Shown one piece after another: positions 9,583-34,484 of a DNA stretch of 34,812 nt. Position 1 is the first letter of the stretch. Every line of letters begins with the position of its first letter. The stretch is from positions 1 to 34,812 of the forward strand of contig JAHCIP010000025.1 in NCBI GenBank assembly GCA_026129165.1, written 5' to 3'. A program made the position numbers and the translations under genes. The stretch comes from Anaerolineae bacterium. GTDB lineage: Bacteria; Chloroflexota; Anaerolineae; Epilineales; JAHCIE01. The notes beneath the pieces were generated by a model. The model saw only the letters and a list, made by a program, of their open reading frames with translations. It had not been told where the DNA came from and made no database searches.

Positions 9583-9703
9583 ATCTTTCGAGATGGAGTG
9601 AGATCCCATGTGGACGCGCGAGAGCCGCTTGCCCGACGGCGTGACGAGCGCCGCTTGCCTGAATCCCAACCCCGCGCTACAATCACGCGCACACGGAGGC
9701 GCG

Positions 9704-10402
9704 ATGAGTGGCGAGACCGTCCTGGTCGTGGATGACGAGCCGAGCATCCTTGAAGTGGTCGAGCTATACCTGAGGCAGGAGGGGTTCCGGGTCGTGACCG
9801 CGCCCGACGGACCAGCCGCGCTTCAAGCGGCCCGCCGCCAGCGGCCCGACCTCGTCGTGCTGGACCTGATGTTGCCCGGCATGAGCGGCCTGGAGGTGTG
9901 CCGCACGCTGCGTGGCGAGAGCACTCCTCCCCTGCCGGTGATCATGCTGACCGCGCGGGGCAGCGAGACTGACCGTGTCGTGGGCCTGGAACTGGGCGCC
10001 GACGACTACGTGGTCAAGCCATTTAGCCCACGCGAACTCGTCGCGCGGGTCAAGGCCGTCCTCCGCCGCACCACTCCCCCGCCCGCCGCGAGCGGCACGC
10101 CTGCCTTGACCTTCGGTGATCTGCGCATCGAGCCGACGACCCGCCAGGTGACGCTGGAGGGCAAGCCCGTCATCCTGACAGCGCGGGAGTTCGATCTGCT
10201 CCACTTCCTGGCCCAGCACCCCAACCAGGTCTTTACCCGTGACCAACTCATGGACCATGTCTGGGGCTACGAGGTGGCGGGCGACACCAGCACGGTGACG
10301 GTCCATGTGCGCCGGCTGCGTGAAAAGATCGAGGCCGACCCGACGCACCCCCAGCATGTTCTGACGGTTTGGGGCGTGGGCTACAAGTTCGACCCCAGCT
10401 AA
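9704..10402 (+). CDS. OmpR-family response regulator
   Basis: A 232-residue two-component response regulator. The receiver domain (residues 4-118) has the acidic pair Asp10/Asp11, phospho-acceptor Asp54 (VVLDLMLPG), the conserved Thr in MLTARG and Lys in VVKPF. The C-terminal winged-helix DNA-binding domain (about 130-230) has LTAREFDLLHFLA and the TVTVHVRRLREKIE recognition helix. ATG at 9704 follows GGAGGC; the frame is open upstream but not conserved. The kinase gene follows after 7 bp, so the pair is one operon. Target genes are unknown; the SGNH lipoprotein just downstream is a positional candidate. Confidence 0.96.
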   Translation: MSGETVLVVDDEPSILEVVELYLRQEGFRVVTAPDGPAALQAARRQRPDLVVLDLMLPGMSGLEVCRTLRGESTPPLPVIMLTARGSETDRVVGLELGADDYVVKPFSPRELVARVKAVLRRTTPPPAASGTPALTFGDLRIEPTTRQVTLEGKPVILTAREFDLLHFLAQHPNQVFTRDQLMDHVWGYEVAGDTSTVTVHVRRLREKIEADPTHPQHVLTVWGVGYKFDPS

Positions 10403-10409
10403 CCCTCTG

Positions 10410-11648
10410 ATGTTGGTCCTGCGTCGCGCGCCCCTCACCTCCATCGCCCTGGCCTTTGCCCTCGCGCTGGGCCTCGCCGCGCTGTGGCTGCGCGCGCCGG
10501 GGGCCGACCTGCGCGCCCTGGCGCTGTACCTGGCCCTCTCCACGGGCCTGTCCCTTGCCCTGGCCGCCCTGGTCTTCCGCTGGAGCCGCTTCGCCCCGGC
10601 CCTCCGCCTCAAAGTCACCCTGGCCTACCTGCTCGGCGTCGCCGTCACCCTCGCCAATATCGCCGTCACCGCCCACTTGATGTTCCTGTCGGCGCATGAC
10701 CTGAGCCTGCTCACGCTGCTCCTCGTCTTCAGCGCCCTATTATCCCTCGGCTTCGGCCTGGCCCTGGCCCAGTCCATCTCACAGGCAGCGCGTCAGGTAT
10801 CGCAGGCCGCCCACCGCGTTGCCCAAGGCGACCTGACGGCGCGAGCAACGGTGGAGGGCCACGACGAGTTGGCGCAACTGGCGGCGGACTTTAATGCGAT
10901 GGCGGATCGGCTGGCCCAGGCCATGCGGGAGCGGGAACAAATGGAACGCTCGCGCCGCGAGTTGATCGCGGCGGTGTCGCACGACCTGCGGACGCCCCTG
11001 GCCTCCATCCGCGCCCTGGTCGAAGCCCTGGCCGACGGCATGGTGGACGACCCACGCATGGCCGAGCGCTACCTGGCGACGATTCGAGGTCAGACGGCCA
11101 GCCTGAGCCGGCTCATTGACGACCTGTTCGACCTGGCCCAACTCGACGCCGGCGCGCTCCGTCTACACCTGGAACCCACGTCGTTGAGCGACCTGATCTC
11201 CGATACGCTGGAGAGTATGCAGGCGCAGGCGCAAACCAAAGGGGTCCATCTGACGGGCGAAGTCCAACCGGCGGTGGACCCTGTGCTCATCGCACCCGAT
11301 AAGGTCCAGCGGGTTCTCTACAACCTGGTCCAGAACGCGCTGCGCCACACGCCGCCGGATGGGAGTGTGTATCTCACGGCACGCGTGGTCGAGGACGCGG
11401 TCCAGGTGGATGTGGTGGACACGGGCGAAGGCATCCCCTCGGAGGACCTGCCCCATGTCTTCGAGCCGTTCTATCGGGCCGAGAAGTCGCGGTCGCGCGA
11501 TCACGGCGGGGCGGGCCTCGGCCTCGCCATTGCGCGGGGGATTGTCGAGGCGCACGGCGGTCGCCTCTGGGTGGCGAGCCAGCCGGGCACAGGGGCCAGC
11601 TTTTCGTTTACCCTCCCCCTGGCCGTGCGGCCATCCAAACGAGGCTAG
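10410..11648 (+). CDS. Membrane sensor histidine kinase
   Basis: A 412-residue partner of the preceding regulator. Four membrane helices (about 8-28, 36-57, 68-93, 97-120) with only short loops leave no large external sensor domain, so it probably senses a signal in or at the membrane. Then come HAMP (about 120-172), the phosphorylatable His191 (AAVSHDLRTPL), and the ATPase domain with the N box (NLVQNALRHTPPDG), G1 (DTGEGIP), F box (FEPFYRAEKSR) and G2 (GAGLGLAIARGIVEAHGG). No clear ribosome site precedes the ATG, so translation is probably coupled to the regulator gene. Confidence 0.95.
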   Translation: MLVLRRAPLTSIALAFALALGLAALWLRAPGADLRALALYLALSTGLSLALAALVFRWSRFAPALRLKVTLAYLLGVAVTLANIAVTAHLMFLSAHDLSLLTLLLVFSALLSLGFGLALAQSISQAARQVSQAAHRVAQGDLTARATVEGHDELAQLAADFNAMADRLAQAMREREQMERSRRELIAAVSHDLRTPLASIRALVEALADGMVDDPRMAERYLATIRGQTASLSRLIDDLFDLAQLDAGALRLHLEPTSLSDLISDTLESMQAQAQTKGVHLTGEVQPAVDPVLIAPDKVQRVLYNLVQNALRHTPPDGSVYLTARVVEDAVQVDVVDTGEGIPSEDLPHVFEPFYRAEKSRSRDHGGAGLGLAIARGIVEAHGGRLWVASQPGTGASFSFTLPLAVRPSKRG

Positions 11649-11690
11649 ACGGCATAGTATTCTTAACCTGGCCTGGTGGAGGAGAATACG

Positions 11691-12527
11691 ATGCCCTGGC
11701 GGCGCCGACTCTACCCCTTGTTGCTCTGGCTGACCTGGTTGTGCGGGTGCAGCCGACCCTCTGTCGTAACGACACCGACCCCAACCCCGCCGGTGGCGCC
11801 TGAGCCTACCGCGTCCGGTGAGCCTCCGCTACGCCTGTTGTTCATCGGCAACAGTCTGACCTATGCCAACGACCTGCCCACCCTGGTGCAGCAAGTGGCA
11901 GTGGCGGCCGGCCACCCCGTGCCTATGGTGAAGATGGTGGCTGTTGGCGGGTATAGCCTGGAGGATCACTGGGCCGACGGCGCGGCGCGGGCCGCCCTGG
12001 ACCAGGGCGGCTGGGATGTGGTGGTGCTCCAGCAAGGGCCATCGGCGCTGCCGGAGAGCCGACGCAATCTCGTAACGTGGACGCAGCAGTTCGACCCGGC
12101 CATCCGTCAGATCGGGGGGCGGACGGCGCTCTACATGGTCTGGCCTGAAGGGTATCGCCCGGCGGCGTTGCGTGACGTGGCCTTGTCATATGCCTCGGCC
12201 GCGGCCAGTGTGGACGGTCTGCTGCTGCCAGTCGGGGAGGGGTGGCGCATTGCCTGGCAGCGGGACGCCTGTTTGCCCTTGTACGGCCCCGATCAGTTTC
12301 ACCCATCCCTGGCCGGGTCGTGGCTCGCCGCGCTCATCATCTACGGGGAGGTGTATGGCGAGCCAGTCGCGGAGGTCAGGCTACCTGTCACCGCGTCGGC
12401 TCTAAGGCTAACGCCGGACCAATTGACCGTGCTCGTCGAGGCCGCGACAGACGGCGTCCAGACCGCAAGACTATCCCTGGAACAACGCGCCAGCCTGGAT
12501 TACACCATCCCCCGCTGCCCCCGCTAG
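11691..12527 (+). CDS. SGNH/GDSL hydrolase lipoprotein
   Basis: A 278-residue exported lipoprotein. The short signal peptide ends in LCGC (Cys20), followed by a Thr/Pro linker. The SGNH block I is LLFIGNSLTYANDLP with nucleophile Ser55, and block V is DQFHPSLAGSWLAAL, giving the Asp-x-x-His of the triad. The middle part has VVLQQGPSALPES in the block III position. Enzymes of this fold hydrolyse esters, e.g. acyl or acetyl groups on lipids or polysaccharides, here presumably outside the membrane. ATG 11691 follows GGAGGAG. It lies 42 bp after the kinase gene and could share its transcript. Confidence 0.88.
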   Translation: MPWRRRLYPLLLWLTWLCGCSRPSVVTTPTPTPPVAPEPTASGEPPLRLLFIGNSLTYANDLPTLVQQVAVAAGHPVPMVKMVAVGGYSLEDHWADGAARAALDQGGWDVVVLQQGPSALPESRRNLVTWTQQFDPAIRQIGGRTALYMVWPEGYRPAALRDVALSYASAAASVDGLLLPVGEGWRIAWQRDACLPLYGPDQFHPSLAGSWLAALIIYGEVYGEPVAEVRLPVTASALRLTPDQLTVLVEAATDGVQTARLSLEQRASLDYTIPRCPR

Positions 12528-12606: not shown

Positions 12607-12686
12607 GGCGTTCTGAGAGTTGTAGCAACTCGCAGGCGAGGTTCCTCCCCCCCCCATCTCACTGAATGCTGAGTTCCAGGAGGTCT

Positions 12687-15600
12687 ATGATGCCCCGCCC
12701 CCGTGTCTTACGCTGGCTCCCCTCGCTCGTCGTCGTGCTGCTGGTGATGTTGGCCGCGAGTCTGTTACCCGTTTATGGCGCGTCACCCATCCCCGATACG
12801 ATAGATAGTTTAAGCGCCCCCGACCAACTCCCCAGTAGCGCCCGCGCCTCCAGCCCCATCGCCCTCACCTCTGACAACCGTCTTCTCGTCGTATGCAACC
12901 CGGACAATGACAGCGTCAGTGTCTTCCTGGTCCAGGCGGATACCAATCGCAAGCTGGCTGAGATTCGCGTCGGCCGCGAGCCTCGTTCCGTCGCCATCCA
13001 CCCCAACAACCAATTCGCCCTCGTCACCAATCAGGGGAGTGGCACGGTGTCGTTTATTGACTTACGGCAACTTCGGCGGACCCAGGATATCCAGGTGGGG
13101 GCCGAGCCCTATGGTATCGTCATCACGCCGGACGGCCGAGAGGCCTGGATCACTCTCTCAGGGTTGAATGGTACATTTTTCAGAATTTCCTTTGTCGCCC
13201 AGGGGCACAGTGAGCTTCCCGCGCTGGCCGCTGGCGAAATGCTGAGTGTCACAGCGCCGACGGCCAAGACCGACGCACAGCCTGAGCTGATCAGCTTGCG
13301 CGGCATTGCCGTCGTTACCCGCAACGGGCAAGATTTCCTGTACATGACTCAGTTCCTGTCGAACCTGCCCCTGAACGGCCAGCAGATGAACGACCGGGGC
13401 AAGACGGGTCATGTCTTTGTGGTGCCTCGCCTGAACTCCAGCCAGGTGACAGATATCAGCCTGGCGCCCCATGAGACCGGCTTCGAGGCCGATCGGACCA
13501 ACTTTGGCGGCTCGGCCACCACCCCCACCTTTGCCTTCCCCAATCAATTGCAGGCCATCGCCGTCAAGGGGACGCGGCTTTACCTGCCCAACACGTCCGC
13601 CTCGCCCGAAGCGCCCGTCAAGTTCGACGTGGATACCCAGGCATTTCTGGGTGTCATTGATACCACCACTAATCAGGAAGTGGGCGCGTTCAACATCAAC
13701 CTGAACCTGGCGGTCAAACAGCAGACGGCGACGCCGAAGCTCTTCCTGGCTGTGCCGTGGGCGGCTGCCTTCGAGAACGGCAGCAACGACGGGTATGTCG
13801 TCTCCTCGGCTAGCAACGTCCTGGCTAAGATTTCCCTAAATGGCGCCGGGCAGCCCAGCGCCGTCTTGGATAATGTGACGGGCGGGACGCGGGTGCGTGA
13901 GATCGCTGTCGGCAAGAACCCGCAGGGCCTGGTCATTAGCTCGAACGACCGGCGGGCGTATGTCATGAACTATGTCTCGCGGGATGTGTCGGTGATTGAC
14001 CTGACCCGCAATCCCGAGACGGTCATCGCCACCTTCCAGTCGGCAGCGCTGCCGCGCCAGGGCACGCTGGAGGACCGCATCCACGTCGGCAAGGAACTCT
14101 TTAACACGTCTGTCGGCGTGTTTGACCAGCGCGACCCCGCGACCAACCAGCCCGTCCGGGGCCGCATGTCCAACAATGGCTGGCAGGGGTGCGTGAGCTG
14201 CCATCCAGCTGGCCTCACCGATGGGGTGGTGTGGCAGTTCCCGGCCGGGCCGCGCAAATCCATTCCGATGAATACGTCGTTCAACCCGAACAACCCCAAC
14301 GAGGCGCGGCTCCTCAACTACTCGGCTATTTTCGATGAGGTCAACGACTTCGAGATAAACATCCGTAACGTGTCAGGTGGTCAGGGCGTCATTATCTCGG
14401 ATACCCTGACCTCATTGGCGCCGCATCCCATCCTCCGCGCCTTTGACCCGGCCAACTTTGGCCGCCGCCAGTTGACCGTGCGCGGCGTCAACGCGCTGGA
14501 CGCCGTGACGGAATACGCCAAACGTGGCATCCGCTCGCCCATCTCAGGCGAGAACGCCAACAATACCACGGTCCAGCGCGGGCGGCAGTTGTTCATCCAG
14601 GCCAACTGCCAGGCGTGCCACGGCGGCTCGTTCTGGACCAACAGCATCCGCGACTTTAACCCGCCGCCGCCGGCCAATCGCCTGGGCACCGGCCAGGCGC
14701 CCGAACCGGCCTTGCAGTTCATCACCAGCGTGCTGCGTCGGGTCGGCACGTTTGACCCGACTAAGGTGGTGGAGCATACCGCCGCCAACCAGGCCCAGCG
14801 GCCGTTGGGGGCGCAGGGGTTCAACGTCCCCTCGCTCATCGGTGTCGGGGCCTTAGGCCCGTACAATCACAACGGCGAGTGCGAGAGCCTCGATTGCGTC
14901 CTCACCAATGTCACGCATCGCAGCGCGGGGGTCGGCGGCGTCGATGTCCTCACCAATGCCAACGACCGCGCGGCGCTCGTCCGCTTCCTGCGCTCGATTG
15001 ACCTCAACACGCGGCCCATCCCCCTGTCGCGCCTGCCGGCCGCTAAGGCCGAGCGCGCCGCGCAGACCGACCTGGGCTATGCTTTGTCGGCCGAGCCGAG
15101 GCGCCTGAGCGTCGCCCGCACCCAATCCGGCCAGGCGAGCATCGTGGTGGAGGGCAACGTGCCGGTCCGGCTGGCCGTGGACGCTAGCACCGTGCCGGCC
15201 GGTGTCACGGCGACACTCAACCCTATCAGCGGCTCTGGGGTCTTCACGGCGACGCTGACTGTCAGCGCGGCGCTCACGGCGCAGAACGGCCAGCACTACA
15301 TCCGCGTGTGCGGGGACGCCGACGGCGATGTGGTGGACCAGTGTGTCGAAGTACCAGTCAATATCTTCGGCTACCAGTTGAACCCCACCGTCAACCGCGC
15401 CTTCGTCCAGGCGGGCGATGTGGCGACCTTCTGGGTCCAGGCCGAGTCGTTGGGCGGCAATGTGCCGGATGTCACCCTCAACGTGTCAGGCGCGCCGGCC
15501 GGCGCGATCCTCAGCTACGCCGTGCCCGGCAGCGACACAGAGTTCACCGACCCGCCGACGGGCACACCCTTTGATGACTTCCCGTTCGTCACGGTTATCA

Positions 15601-15761
15601 AGGTAGCGACAGCCGCCGGGACGCCGACCGGGTCGTATACGCTGACGGTGCGGGCCAACGGGGAGGGCTTGCAGCGCGAGGCGCAGTTGACGCTCCAGGT
15701 GGGCGGAACCTTCAGCCGCCTCTACCTGCCGCAGGTGCAGCGGAACCCGGCGGAGGAGTAG
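12687..15761 (+). CDS. Large exported protein: YVTN-type propeller, two CxxCH haem sites, Ig-like domains
   Basis: A 1,024-residue secreted or surface protein. It has a signal peptide (LPSLVVVLLVMLAASLLP, cleavage near residue 32), a beta-propeller of YVTN/YncE type spread over about 55-445 (VGREPRSVAIHPNNQFALVT, IAVGKNPQGLVISSNDRRAY), then a cytochrome c-like part with two haem-binding sites, C502VSCH506 and C641QACH645. Two Ig-like/CARDB-type domains (about 800-1005) follow, and the tail RLYLPQVQRN resembles the C-terminal motif common on Chloroflexota exported proteins. The architecture suggests electron transfer or an oxidoreductase on the cell surface, but no partner gene is nearby. ATG 12687 (or 12690) is chosen because AGGAGG precedes it; the earlier ATG at 12666 has no such site. 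Confidence 0.87.
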   Translation: MMPRPRVLRWLPSLVVVLLVMLAASLLPVYGASPIPDTIDSLSAPDQLPSSARASSPIALTSDNRLLVVCNPDNDSVSVFLVQADTNRKLAEIRVGREPRSVAIHPNNQFALVTNQGSGTVSFIDLRQLRRTQDIQVGAEPYGIVITPDGREAWITLSGLNGTFFRISFVAQGHSELPALAAGEMLSVTAPTAKTDAQPELISLRGIAVVTRNGQDFLYMTQFLSNLPLNGQQMNDRGKTGHVFVVPRLNSSQVTDISLAPHETGFEADRTNFGGSATTPTFAFPNQLQAIAVKGTRLYLPNTSASPEAPVKFDVDTQAFLGVIDTTTNQEVGAFNINLNLAVKQQTATPKLFLAVPWAAAFENGSNDGYVVSSASNVLAKISLNGAGQPSAVLDNVTGGTRVREIAVGKNPQGLVISSNDRRAYVMNYVSRDVSVIDLTRNPETVIATFQSAALPRQGTLEDRIHVGKELFNTSVGVFDQRDPATNQPVRGRMSNNGWQGCVSCHPAGLTDGVVWQFPAGPRKSIPMNTSFNPNNPNEARLLNYSAIFDEVNDFEINIRNVSGGQGVIISDTLTSLAPHPILRAFDPANFGRRQLTVRGVNALDAVTEYAKRGIRSPISGENANNTTVQRGRQLFIQANCQACHGGSFWTNSIRDFNPPPPANRLGTGQAPEPALQFITSVLRRVGTFDPTKVVEHTAANQAQRPLGAQGFNVPSLIGVGALGPYNHNGECESLDCVLTNVTHRSAGVGGVDVLTNANDRAALVRFLRSIDLNTRPIPLSRLPAAKAERAAQTDLGYALSAEPRRLSVARTQSGQASIVVEGNVPVRLAVDASTVPAGVTATLNPISGSGVFTATLTVSAALTAQNGQHYIRVCGDADGDVVDQCVEVPVNIFGYQLNPTVNRAFVQAGDVATFWVQAESLGGNVPDVTLNVSGAPAGAILSYAVPGSDTEFTDPPTGTPFDDFPFVTVIKVATAAGTPTGSYTLTVRANGEGLQREAQLTLQVGGTFSRLYLPQVQRNPAEE

Positions 15762-30761: not shown

Positions 30762-33700
30762 TCAACGCCAGACCCTCGGCGTGTCGCCGCTGACGCCGTA
30801 GGTGACGAACGTCTCGCCCGTTCCGCTATCATTTGAGTTGCGCAGGAACCACGTCCCATCGCGGAAGGCGCCGGGGGTATCCGTGCCGTTGGCGTCCCAG
30901 TCGCCCGGAATCGGGACGTCGGACGTCGCGCCGTACAGGAAGGCCAGGTCGGCGGGGCCGTTGGTGTTGGTGTTGCGCAGATACCAGGCGATGGAGCCGC
31001 CGCTCGGCCGCGCCACGCCGGGCGTGTCCACGCCGTCACCGTTCCAATCCCCCACCAGGGCCGTATCGCCGGACAGGCCGTAGGCGATGGTGATGTCTGA
31101 GACGCCAGAGGAGTTGGCGTTACGCAAGTACCAGGCATTACCGCGCTTGACGCCGACTGTCTCGGTACCGTTGCCGTCCCAGTCGCCACACACCGGCGTA
31201 TCGCCCGTCATGCCATAGCTGAAGACAGCGTCGGCGGTCCCGCCCGAGGTTGTATTCTTAATATACCACGCGCCATTACGGAAGACGCCCGGCGTGCGCG
31301 TCCCATTGCCGTCCCAGTCGCACATCAACGAGACATCCGTAGACAGACCGTAGCTGAACGCCAGATCGGAGAGACCGGAGGTCAGCGAGTTACGCAGATA
31401 CCAGACATTGCCTCGTACTACGGCCCCCCGATTGAGGGCGGCCGAGCCGACCGAGGTGGATGTTTGGCCCGCGCCGTTGACGGCCACCAGCTTGTAGTAG
31501 TAGCCCTGACCGGCCGCGCCCGTGTCGGTATAGCTCTGCTTGCCGGTGACCGTACCGAAGGCGGCCGGCGCTACAGTCGTCAGCAGGTTGGCCGGGCCGG
31601 GGGTGAAGCCGGGCGTCGTGCCCCGATAGACCCGGTAGGCAGTCACGAGTTCGCGCCCACTGAGGGTATCGGTCAGGACGGTGTTCCAGTTCAGGATGGT
31701 GTTCGCGCCGTCCTGAGTCACCTGCAAACCGGTCGGCGCGGTGGGGGTGTCAATCTTGGCGTCTTCCAGCAGGACGACGCCCCAGGTCGGGTTGACCGGG
31801 ACCGTGACCTGGCCGCTGCTGACAATGTAGGTGGTCCCTTCGATGACCTCACGCAGCAGCGTGCCGTTAGGCAGGTTAAACGGCGCGGCGTTGAGGCCGC
31901 TGAAGACGGCGGTGTGCTGGAGGCTGTCGCGGTTGAGGGCGATGAGCGCCGTCTGCGTCCCGGTAGTGCGGCCAAAGCCGTAGACCTTGTTCGCGTCGTC
32001 CACAATCAGGCCGTGCTGCACATCGCCGTCCTGGAGGGCGCGATAGCTGTGGCGGAGGCTTGCCATCTTGCGGGCGAAGGGCAGCAGGTTGGTCGTATCG
32101 GCGCTGTAGGCGCCAAGCGTATCGTCCCATGGATAGGGCGTTCGGTTGTAGGGGTCGTCCTCGTACTTGCCATTGGAGGCGACGCCGTCCATGCTCAGCC
32201 CCACCTCGTCGCCGTAGTAGAGTGTCGGCGCGCCGGCGTAGGTGAAGGCGAACAGCCACCACTCCTTCAGGCGCTGGACCGCTGCCGCGTCGCTGTCATT
32301 GTTGATCTTTTTGAGCAGGAAGCGCACGCGGTTGGTGTCGTGGGAGTCGGCCAGGTTCATCATGGCCTTGAAGGCCATCGGCGGGTAGTCCTCGGCGATG
32401 GAGCGCAGCCGCGTGTCGAACTGCGACGGACTCAGGTAGCCCATGGGGCCGCTGATGCTGGCCGAGTTGGCGTCGTTGTCCTCGAAGGACGTACCGCTAT
32501 TGCAGCCGTTGCCGCCCGTGCAGCCCGTGAACAGCCAGCTCATCACCGCCGCGCGGAAGCGGTAGTTCATGACGCTGTCCCACTCGCCGCCGAGCAGCCA
32601 GGGTGTCGCGTCGCCCCACTCCTCGCCCAGCATGACCACATCGCTCTTGCCCGTCAGCCCCGCGTTGCGCACAGCGGCGCGGAAGCCTTCCCAGTAGTCG
32701 TTGGTCGGGTCATTGGTGACGCCGGGGTCCACGTCACCGCCGACGTCGAAGCGCCAGCCGTCCGCGCCCTGGCTGGTCCAGTAGGGGCCGACCGAGGCGA
32801 GGCCGTTGCTCCAGATGAGGTTACGCACGGCGGTCGAGTTGGCGCGCAGTTTGGGCAGCGACGAGTAGCCGTACCAGGCTTCGTAGGTCTGGGGCGCGTT
32901 GGCAGCGCCATTGGCGCAATAGACCGTCGTCGCGCCATCCTTGCCTGGCGCCCCAATGTCGGGGAAGTAGAACCAGCCATAGTAGGGCGCCCCGCCGTCC
33001 TCGCACGCGCCGCTGTTATCGTCCGTCCCGACGCCGGGGCTGGTCAAATTGCCCGCCGCGTCGTAGCGGTGGTAGCGGTCGAAATACTTGCTGTCCGACG
33101 AGGTGTGGTTGAACACCCCGTCAAGCATGATCTTGATACCGTGGGCGTGGGCGGTCTGGGCCAGGGTCTGGAAGTCGGCCAGCGTGCCGAAGTCGGGGTC
33201 AATGGTCAGGTAGTCCGAGGTGTCGTACTTGTGGTTGGAGGGCGCGCGGAAGATGGGGTTGAGGTAGAGGACCGTGACGCCCAGGTTGTCGAAGTAGCCT
33301 TGCTGGACCTTCTGGGTGATGCCCTTGAGGTCACCGCCGTAGAAGTTGTCGCCGTACTTGTCGGGGCAAGAGGGCGACTGCACGCCGCGCGGGTCGCAGA
33401 CCGTCACGTTCCAGGCCGTCTGGTTGGAACGGACAATGGCGCCGCCAGCGATGTTGTACGAGAAGCGGCCGGCCGTCGGGTTGTTGGCCGGGTCGCCGTC
33501 GCGGAAGCGGTCGGGGAAAATCTGGTAGACGACGCCGCGCTGCATCCAGGCCGGCACGTCGAAGGCCGGGTCGTAGACCGTCACCTGGAAGGAGTTGTCC
33601 TCGGCGGTGGACCGTGTCCCGCGCGCCTCGCCCCAGCCGCCGGGGTTTGTCTTACCACCATAGAAGGCGTCGGGCGACTTGGCGCTATAGTAGGTTGTGT

Positions 33701-34484
33701 TCGTGCCGTCTACGGCGCGGAAAGAGTAGTAGAGGGCAGTGGCGCTGGCTGGGATGGGCAGGCTCACGGTCCAGTACGAAACTGCGCCGAGGGACGGGTC
33801 CGTGGCGTTGCTGTCGAAGGTCATGGGCAGCAGCGACTCGGCATTGGTCCGGTCATTCCAGACGCGCAGGGTCACGGATTGGGCATCGTTCTGACAGGTA
33901 CGAAATTTGAGGGTGGCGGTCCCCTGGCCCGTGGTAACCGGGCCGCCAGGGCTGCGGTACTGGGTCAGGAAGGAGTTGTGGCCCAGACCGATGTAGTAGA
34001 CATTGTTGTCGCCTGTCGTCGCGCCGGCGCATGTACTGGCGGGCGTATACGACGTAAACGACGACTGGAAGCCCGTGTAGCCGTGACAGTTGGTGTTGGT
34101 CGTGCCATAGTCACACACGGCGTACTGGTACTCGACCGTTCGCCCGGCCGGGATGGCGGTACTGGTATTGCACTCGAAGCGGGCGGTCGTCCCAGCCGGC
34201 AGACCCGTCCCGTTCAGATAGGTACAGGCGGTACGGGTGTAGGTGTTGGCGGTCAGGTCATGCAGTTCAATCGTCACGCCTTCGCCCAGGTCCGTATTAG
34301 CCGCTACGGTGAATTTGTAGCCCGGATTATTGTTGGGCGGCGGGTTGGGCGTTTCATTGACCAGGGTACAGGTCGTACAGGCGAAGGCGGATTGATTCGT
34401 GGCCGCGATGGCGAGGAAGAGGAGGGTCGCCACGGCGGCCAATCGAGCCAGGTATATGATTGTGGGTTGGTAGTGCTTCAGCAT
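30762..34484 (-). CDS. Exported GH13 alpha-amylase/amylopullulanase-type protein with C-terminal repeats
   Basis: A 1,240-residue secreted glycoside hydrolase. A signal peptide (cleaved near SAFA-C) is followed by Cys-containing N-terminal beta domains (about 40-300), then the GH13 TIM barrel. Its conserved regions are all present: DGVFNH (455-460), GWRFD with nucleophile Asp580, GEEW with acid/base Glu621, and DSHDTNR with Asp716. It should hydrolyse alpha-glucans such as starch or pullulan. An Fn3 domain (about 925-1020) leads to four and a half 45-residue repeats ('WYLRN ... YGxxxD ... GDWDGNGTxTPG', from 1024 to the end). It is the only gene under the 34596-34624 promoter and the nearby palindrome. 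Confidence 0.93.
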   Translation of the reverse strand: MLKHYQPTIIYLARLAAVATLLFLAIAATNQSAFACTTCTLVNETPNPPPNNNPGYKFTVAANTDLGEGVTIELHDLTANTYTRTACTYLNGTGLPAGTTARFECNTSTAIPAGRTVEYQYAVCDYGTTNTNCHGYTGFQSSFTSYTPASTCAGATTGDNNVYYIGLGHNSFLTQYRSPGGPVTTGQGTATLKFRTCQNDAQSVTLRVWNDRTNAESLLPMTFDSNATDPSLGAVSYWTVSLPIPASATALYYSFRAVDGTNTTYYSAKSPDAFYGGKTNPGGWGEARGTRSTAEDNSFQVTVYDPAFDVPAWMQRGVVYQIFPDRFRDGDPANNPTAGRFSYNIAGGAIVRSNQTAWNVTVCDPRGVQSPSCPDKYGDNFYGGDLKGITQKVQQGYFDNLGVTVLYLNPIFRAPSNHKYDTSDYLTIDPDFGTLADFQTLAQTAHAHGIKIMLDGVFNHTSSDSKYFDRYHRYDAAGNLTSPGVGTDDNSGACEDGGAPYYGWFYFPDIGAPGKDGATTVYCANGAANAPQTYEAWYGYSSLPKLRANSTAVRNLIWSNGLASVGPYWTSQGADGWRFDVGGDVDPGVTNDPTNDYWEGFRAAVRNAGLTGKSDVVMLGEEWGDATPWLLGGEWDSVMNYRFRAAVMSWLFTGCTGGNGCNSGTSFEDNDANSASISGPMGYLSPSQFDTRLRSIAEDYPPMAFKAMMNLADSHDTNRVRFLLKKINNDSDAAAVQRLKEWWLFAFTYAGAPTLYYGDEVGLSMDGVASNGKYEDDPYNRTPYPWDDTLGAYSADTTNLLPFARKMASLRHSYRALQDGDVQHGLIVDDANKVYGFGRTTGTQTALIALNRDSLQHTAVFSGLNAAPFNLPNGTLLREVIEGTTYIVSSGQVTVPVNPTWGVVLLEDAKIDTPTAPTGLQVTQDGANTILNWNTVLTDTLSGRELVTAYRVYRGTTPGFTPGPANLLTTVAPAAFGTVTGKQSYTDTGAAGQGYYYKLVAVNGAGQTSTSVGSAALNRGAVVRGNVWYLRNSLTSGLSDLAFSYGLSTDVSLMCDWDGNGTRTPGVFRNGAWYIKNTTSGGTADAVFSYGMTGDTPVCGDWDGNGTETVGVKRGNAWYLRNANSSGVSDITIAYGLSGDTALVGDWNGDGVDTPGVARPSGGSIAWYLRNTNTNGPADLAFLYGATSDVPIPGDWDANGTDTPGAFRDGTWFLRNSNDSGTGETFVTYGVSGDTPRVWR

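Follow-up and report, generated by a model that had tools for sequence, protein, structure and literature searches.

What does a protein do that carries two c-type haem sites behind a beta-propeller and is probably sent outside the membrane of its cell? The question is raised by an open reading frame (ORF) at 12666-15761, plus strand, of a 34,812-nucleotide stretch from Anaerolineae bacterium (Chloroflexota; contig JAHCIP010000025.1 of assembly GCA_026129165.1), the whole of which is referred to here as the window. Residues are numbered along the 1031-amino-acid (aa) ORF read from 12666, its propeller-dihaem product is called the window protein, and all parts of the gene are given on the plus strand. 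An earlier note, made from the letters alone, had proposed an outside-facing redox enzyme or electron conduit. The most probable reading, rated here at roughly 55%, assigns the protein to the peroxidase/MauG/RoxA/hydrazine synthase gamma superfamily as an exported dihaem oxidoreductase, situated behind a beta-propeller and probably dependent on peroxide, with peroxide being our best guess for the substrate. Statements taken from the literature rest on excerpts of the cited papers.

Two conserved haem sites

Haem 1, the putative open and catalytic haem, is expected at CVSCH (aa 509-513; 14190-14204), and haem 2, the putative electron-transfer haem, at CQACH (aa 648-652; 14607-14621). The motifs start 139 residues apart, in keeping with the distance of about 140 given before. 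Among 200,000 shuffles of the window protein, at least one CxxCH appeared in 0.08% and two in none, by which a chance origin of the pair was ruled out. Exactly two CxxCH motifs were found in the matching frame of all 19 strong or long matches, comprising 16 from whole genomes (E up to 1e-20) and three plasmid records, and both sites are therefore regarded as real haem sites, as the earlier note had read them. Since both motifs are kept in full at all 19 loci, the sequences also argue against both being tied up in disulfides. The short propeller matches L002-L004 held no CxxCH in any frame of at least 300 aa. The relative L044 has two CxxCH, its locus having been found by a DNA pattern that itself included one CxxCH.

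The family alignment consists of the window protein and 15 relatives (frames of at least 600 aa with two CxxCH), with the near-copies L008, L015 and L016 as well as L012 (1744 aa) standing outside it. Invariant in 16/16 are W506xxCxxCH, G528, R530, D561, D612, G639xxxF643 and the CxxCH at 648, together with P722, L724 and PYxHxG (732-737) in the C-terminal part. Trp506 (14181-14183) is absent in L012 and L044, and Asp561 lies within an acidic motif, DEVNDFE (aa 557-563; 14334-14354).

Superfamily placement of the dihaem domain

The dihaem domain (aa 466-787; 14061-15026) was delimited by a profile of the 15 relatives and by a profile search of the PDB. A clear MauG signature had previously been reported as not seen; it is present as PSLIGVGALGPYNHNG (aa 722-737; 14829-14876), with the pattern PSLxxxxxxxPYNHNG, as judged from the invariant columns and the PDB search. 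In that search, the family profile matched the dihaem peroxidases 3o5c (E 3e-26) and 1iqc (3.3e-23) best, followed in third place by hydrazine synthase gamma (5c2v_C, 1.7e-21), while MauG entries scored 2.6e-12 to 8e-12 and RoxA (4b2n) 1.6e-5 over 34 profile positions. Altogether, 61 distinct sequences were matched at E up to 0.1, the lower ones often being single-haem cytochromes. The profile of the 15 relatives, from which the window sequence was excluded, gave the window protein 291 bits across aa 468-785, with no match at E up to 10 to the reversed window sequence or to 200 shuffles. Together with the signature, the match to the peroxidases makes the likeness to MauG and peroxidases suggested earlier stronger than had been thought.

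Curated models gave a more distant picture of the window protein itself. The NCBIfam hydrazine_BC, MbnH-type and YVTN-repeat models each matched 16/16 members at E up to 1e-3, the best hydrazine_BC match being 2e-38, and hydrazine_gamma matched 5/16 (best 2.3e-18). Of the first three, the YVTN repeat was the sole model with which the window protein passed the cut-off; its hydrazine_BC score was 42 bits, where the cut-off is 1250, with the best stretch in the propeller repeats. The Pfam family RoxA-like_Cyt-c matched 13/16 members and CCP_MauG 8/16, the window protein being in neither set and its own RoxA-like_Cyt-c match having an E of 0.11. Cytochrome cd1 nitrite reductase was rejected as an identity, as the Cytochrom_D1 match falls below the cut-off and spans just aa 68-143.

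Because the domain combines two CxxCH motifs, the C-terminal P-S/T-L ... PYxHxG signature and profile similarity to solved members, its sequence places it in the bacterial cytochrome c peroxidase / MauG superfamily in the broad sense. Within it, and by the residues tested, the window protein is neither MauG nor a classical peroxidase, since Val749 replaces Tyr/Met with His751 nearby and Tyr552 replaces Trp.

Haem ligands and the inter-haem residue

In four peroxidases of the PDB profile alignment, a Met stands at +14 from the PYxH histidine, which we take to be the ligand of the second haem in classical peroxidases, the Tyr ligand of the second haem of MauG presumably being expected at the same place. 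The window protein has Val749 at +14 and His751 (14916-14918) at +16, the latter being the candidate second axial ligand of haem 2 by alignment. Met and Tyr are absent from +14 throughout the 16 aligned sequences, each of which has a His at +14 to +20, 14 of them at +14 to +18 and two (L005, L022) at +20. A His at +14 to +18 is also found in L008, L012, L015, L016 and L044 (5/5), and 5c2v_C, counted in the profile alignment, has one at +21. The gamma II haem of hydrazine synthase (PMC12607021) and the C-terminal haem of RoxA (PMC6797691) are both reported as bis-His. Haem 2 of the window protein is thus likely to be bis-His.

The inter-haem position is held by Tyr552 (14319-14321), in the profile column where MauG and peroxidases have Trp and hydrazine synthase gamma has His144 (numbering verified). 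This column has Tyr in 5/16 (the window protein, L006, L013, L018 and L019) and Trp in 11/16, and Trp is also found in the five further sequences (L008, L012, L015, L016 and L044). A pair of cysteines, Cys739 and Cys744 (CESLDC; 14880-14897), follows the signature and is present in exactly the five Tyr552 sequences among all 21. In a tree of 19 sequences, which includes the near-copies, a single branch (support 96/98) separates these five from the rest; L010 and L011 sit on long branches. As described for known enzymes, MauG and the peroxidases have Trp between the haems and BthA has Ser, and the six-coordinate haem of BthA has a disulfide close by (PMC6405878).

Proposed function and alternatives

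In the proposed mechanism, haem 1 would be open on its distal side and the chemistry would take place there, near the conserved Asp561, while haem 2 would be held by His652 and His751 and relay electrons, with Tyr552 lying between the two haems. Peroxide could either be reduced, a second exported redox protein supplying the electrons, or serve to oxidise a partner. With less certainty, the propeller may act as a docking scaffold, as has been proposed for hydrazine synthase beta, and the Ig-like tail may keep the enzyme outside the membrane.

Several observations weigh against this reading. Where peroxidases have their distal Gln and Glu, the alignment shows Phe562 and Gly572 or Gly574, depending on the template, which weakens a simple peroxidase reading, and the acidic motif DExxDxE lies tentatively close to these positions in the alignment. 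Pfam CCP_MauG (PF03150) gave no match to the window protein at E up to 1 and none in the genome of the window, the control being positive in 2/14 genomes; the dihaem domain is therefore far from that Pfam model. RoxA is described as having the same fold and a bis-His haem with no peroxidase activity (PMC6797691), and the distribution of the gene is patchy. Finally, AlphaFold2 gave unusable models both of the whole protein as a single sequence (pLDDT 34.7, pTM 0.24) and of the dihaem domain aligned with L044 (pLDDT 29.3, pTM 0.19), so the proposed haem ligands and distances are provisional.

Among the other explanations, the foremost, though unlikely, is a modifier resembling MauG or MbnH, in which an amino acid of a partner, for instance a lipoprotein, would be oxidised with peroxide. 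It would fit the MbnH-type matches throughout the family and the similar lipoprotein genes that come after the two closest orthologues, homologues of one of which occur in 3/15 chosen genomes, and there is a precedent in SACCP, which possibly modifies MopE (PMC3621798); yet the axial Tyr is missing from its expected place, as is the inter-haem Trp, and the lipoprotein homologues in the genome of the window lie on other contigs. Ranking behind it, and doubtful, is an enzyme resembling the hydrazine synthase beta-gamma chain, whose haem 1 would be the site of a reaction with NO or a different nitrogen compound, the partner being guided by the propeller and no hydrazine being made. The domain order equals that of the fused chain, the hydrazine_BC and hydrazine_gamma matches among the members and the third place of gamma in the PDB search point the same way, a CASCHxxGxTxGxxW-like stretch is common to both save for one inserted residue in gamma, and haem 2 would be bis-His, as gamma II is reported to be. 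On the other hand, gamma Cys165 and His144 have no counterparts, two peroxidases outscore gamma, the hydrazine_BC score of the window protein is far below the cut-off and has its best stretch in propeller repeats only, and a search of the genome for HZS_alpha (PF18582) found none, no control genome giving a match either. Hydrazine synthase proper was rejected, as gamma Cys165 and His144 are missing and the hydrazine_BC score falls so far short.

Lower still, and improbable, stands a dioxygenase resembling RoxA that acts on an extracellular organic substrate: the RoxA-like_Cyt-c matches of the members and the bis-His C-terminal haem of RoxA, reported without peroxidase activity, would suit it, but the PDB score of RoxA is low and confined to a short stretch, the match of the window protein itself is insignificant, and the excerpts on RoxA describe no propeller. 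It could also be speculated, as a long shot, that the Tyr552 clade is a distinct enzyme type, with Tyr in place of the inter-haem Trp, a redox-active cysteine pair switching or tuning the bis-His haem and a surface partner docked by the propeller, and that it is a living relative of a non-anammox ancestor of hydrazine synthase beta-gamma. Least probable of all is a non-catalytic electron conduit at the surface, for which two haems, export and a probable Ig-like anchor could speak. Of the two roles first proposed for the window protein, the conduit seems less likely than the enzyme because the signature and the profile place the domain with enzymes, and two haems may be few for a long conduit; the exported, redox-active and dihaem character proposed before is supported. 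An exported, probably peroxide-dependent oxidoreductase thus remains the preferred reading.

Gene, export signal and domain layout

Although the ORF is open from 12666, its start is probably at 12687 or 12690, both ATG codons being favoured by the ribosome-binding site AGGAGG at 12678-12683, seen by eye. The start at 12687 assumed before, giving 1024 residues, is therefore sound. Export of the window protein is supported. A putative signal peptide, MMPRPRVLRW...LLPVYGA, is visible by eye at 12687-12782, with cleavage likely after Ala39; it appears by eye to have no lipobox cysteine, the first Cys of the protein being aa 77. The YVTN/lactonase-type beta-propeller is placed at aa 56-460 (12831-14045) from its repeats and the family alignment. 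The repeats, which had been recognised before, are clear solely at aa 53-166 (Pfam, NCBIfam), and the remainder to about aa 460 comes from the family alignment. The Ig-like domains also named earlier correspond to a probable C-terminal tail (aa 800-1031; 15063-15758), which ends in SRLYLPQVQRNPAEE and for which BACON and CARDB matches both lie below the cut-offs, AlphaFold2 giving strands there with low confidence.

A Y/F/W-L-P-hydrophobic-V-like motif (LYLPQVQRN, VYLPLVIR and similar) is seen in the family alignment both at the C-terminus of the window protein (15714-15758) and, after the signal peptide, at the N-termini of the relatives L007, L009, L020, L021 and L023. It may be a tag that marks exported proteins in a particular lineage.

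Relatives and distribution

In a scan of named genomes, a single locus was found, and it was a propeller match. With its own genome counted, the gene was found in at least 4 of 400 genomes of the phylum (E up to 1e-20), at least 12 of 396 of the class (E up to 1e-25) and 2 of 7 of the order (1e-20), the phylum and class counts being lower bounds, as at most two candidates were scored per genome. In the genus, one further genome (87% complete) was searched, with nothing but short propeller matches, and the orders of G660 and G486 were positive in 1/20 each, namely in those two genomes. The closest relatives are L013 (53%), L006 (52%), L014-L017 (46%) and L018 and L019 (42-43%).

Matches were also found in 50 plasmid records; among the best 20 of the 50, three reach a coverage of the protein of about two thirds or higher and none reaches 80%, the top one being from Agarilytica rhodophyticola (30% identity, aa 62-788). 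Scans of viral contigs yielded one relative with both CxxCH motifs, L043/L044. L044 (IMGVR_UViG_3300002056_000051, classed as viral) encodes a propeller-dihaem relative of 1265 aa, with a gene for a tail-collar domain nearby and a surface Ig-like gene adjoining.

Cytochrome maturation and gene neighbourhood

The genome, 91% complete in 598 contigs, encodes homologues of the cytochrome c maturation system, the absence of which the earlier note had named as a finding that would refute its reading. Contig C201 carries genes of the CcmB and CcmC types next to one for an ABC ATPase, C371 a CcmE-like match (below cut-offs) and a Cytochrom_C_asm protein that is probably the first part of CcmF, and C286 the C-terminal part of CcmF and a thioredoxin-fold protein. 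The statement that no maturation gene lies nearby holds for the 30 other window ORFs scanned (the window has 95 ORFs of at least 100 aa), with the ccm genes located on other contigs. The mau families were likewise absent from the 30 window ORFs, the rest of the genome not having been searched. Redox partners are plausible, Cytochrom_C domains having been matched 20 times in the genome. A candidate donor in G660, encoded beside the orthologue, is a protein that combines a cupredoxin domain with a DUF420 (membrane) match.

A search for co-occurring genes, as had been suggested, set frames of at least 80 aa in the window against nine loci, six from genomes (L030-L035) and three from plasmids (L010-L012). 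The propeller-dihaem gene was found in all nine, and frames antisense to it also matched; the response regulator of the window shares 28-33% identity with regulators in three of the nine (G337, G660 and G419), one window frame matches a stretch of L011 annotated as yidD, and no further like genes were found between the window and these loci. Two-component genes lie near the propeller-dihaem gene in 4/7 genome loci, the window counted, and are of different types, such as the OmpR type in the window and a LuxR type with a GAF kinase in G337. As such genes are generic and their types differ, no conserved operon is claimed. In the window, an OmpR-type response regulator and a histidine kinase are encoded at 9608-11648, upstream of the propeller-dihaem gene, and directly upstream of it, at 11676-12527, lies a gene for a 283-aa lipoprotein whose start (LLFIGNSLTYANDLP) looks by eye like that of an SGNH hydrolase and which has no Pfam match. 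Farther away, a 1240-aa protein with an alpha-amylase domain is encoded on the minus strand at 30762-34484.

The 494-aa lipoprotein encoded downstream in G337 has homologues in three genomes (G337, G660 and that of the window) among 15 that were chosen, nine with closer family members and six others. These three are the genomes with the three closest propeller-dihaem members, and the homologues in the genome of the window are 32-40% identical. This co-occurrence is a lead only. Three proteins related to the VPWVAW-repeat lipoprotein adjoining the closest orthologues are encoded on contigs C94, C19 and C280 of G000.

Comparison with known systems

SACCP of Methylococcus capsulatus may have the same layout as the window protein. 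With the dihaem cytochrome c peroxidases 3o5c and 1iqc, the window protein shares the two CxxCH motifs, the GP and PSL..PYxHDG signatures and the best PDB scores; it differs in having Val in place of the Met at +14, with a His two residues further, Tyr in place of the inter-haem Trp, no distal Gln/Glu visible in the alignment and an added propeller. MauG, MbnH and BthA belong to the same superfamily, in which BthA too varies the inter-haem residue (Ser; PMC6405878), whereas the window protein lacks the axial Tyr at the expected place, carries the propeller and has its cysteines at other positions. RoxA rubber oxygenase has a dihaem fold and a bis-His C-terminal haem in common with it (PMC6797691), but matches it weakly in sequence and is not described with a propeller in the excerpts available.

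The closest comparison in layout is the fused hydrazine synthase beta-gamma (NCBIfam NF052342), in which a propeller is followed by a dihaem domain in one exported chain (PMC12758564), and whose bis-His second haem may, judged by alignment, have a counterpart in haem 2 of the window protein. Unlike this enzyme, the window protein has no counterpart of gamma Cys165 (there is no Cys between 512 and 648), has Tyr552 where gamma has His144 and ends in a probable Ig-like tail. Distant homologues of the fused chain are reported to be highly prevalent in environmental bacteria, with clades I-III retaining Trp and with Planctomycetota, Bacteroidota, Bacillus and others as hosts, Chloroflexota being named in the available text just as co-cultured bacteria (PMC12758564). 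The propeller-dihaem fusion is hence already in print as a kind, to which the window protein adds a variant, and the finding is sound but moderate. In the open-licence literature on such fusions, as far as the excerpts extend, no tested function outside anammox was found, and the origin of hydrazine synthase is described as an open question (PMC12758564). As a single-chain form that lacks the anammox residues tested and has three changes (His751, Tyr552 and Cys739/Cys744), the window protein could help show what the fold does when hydrazine is not its product.

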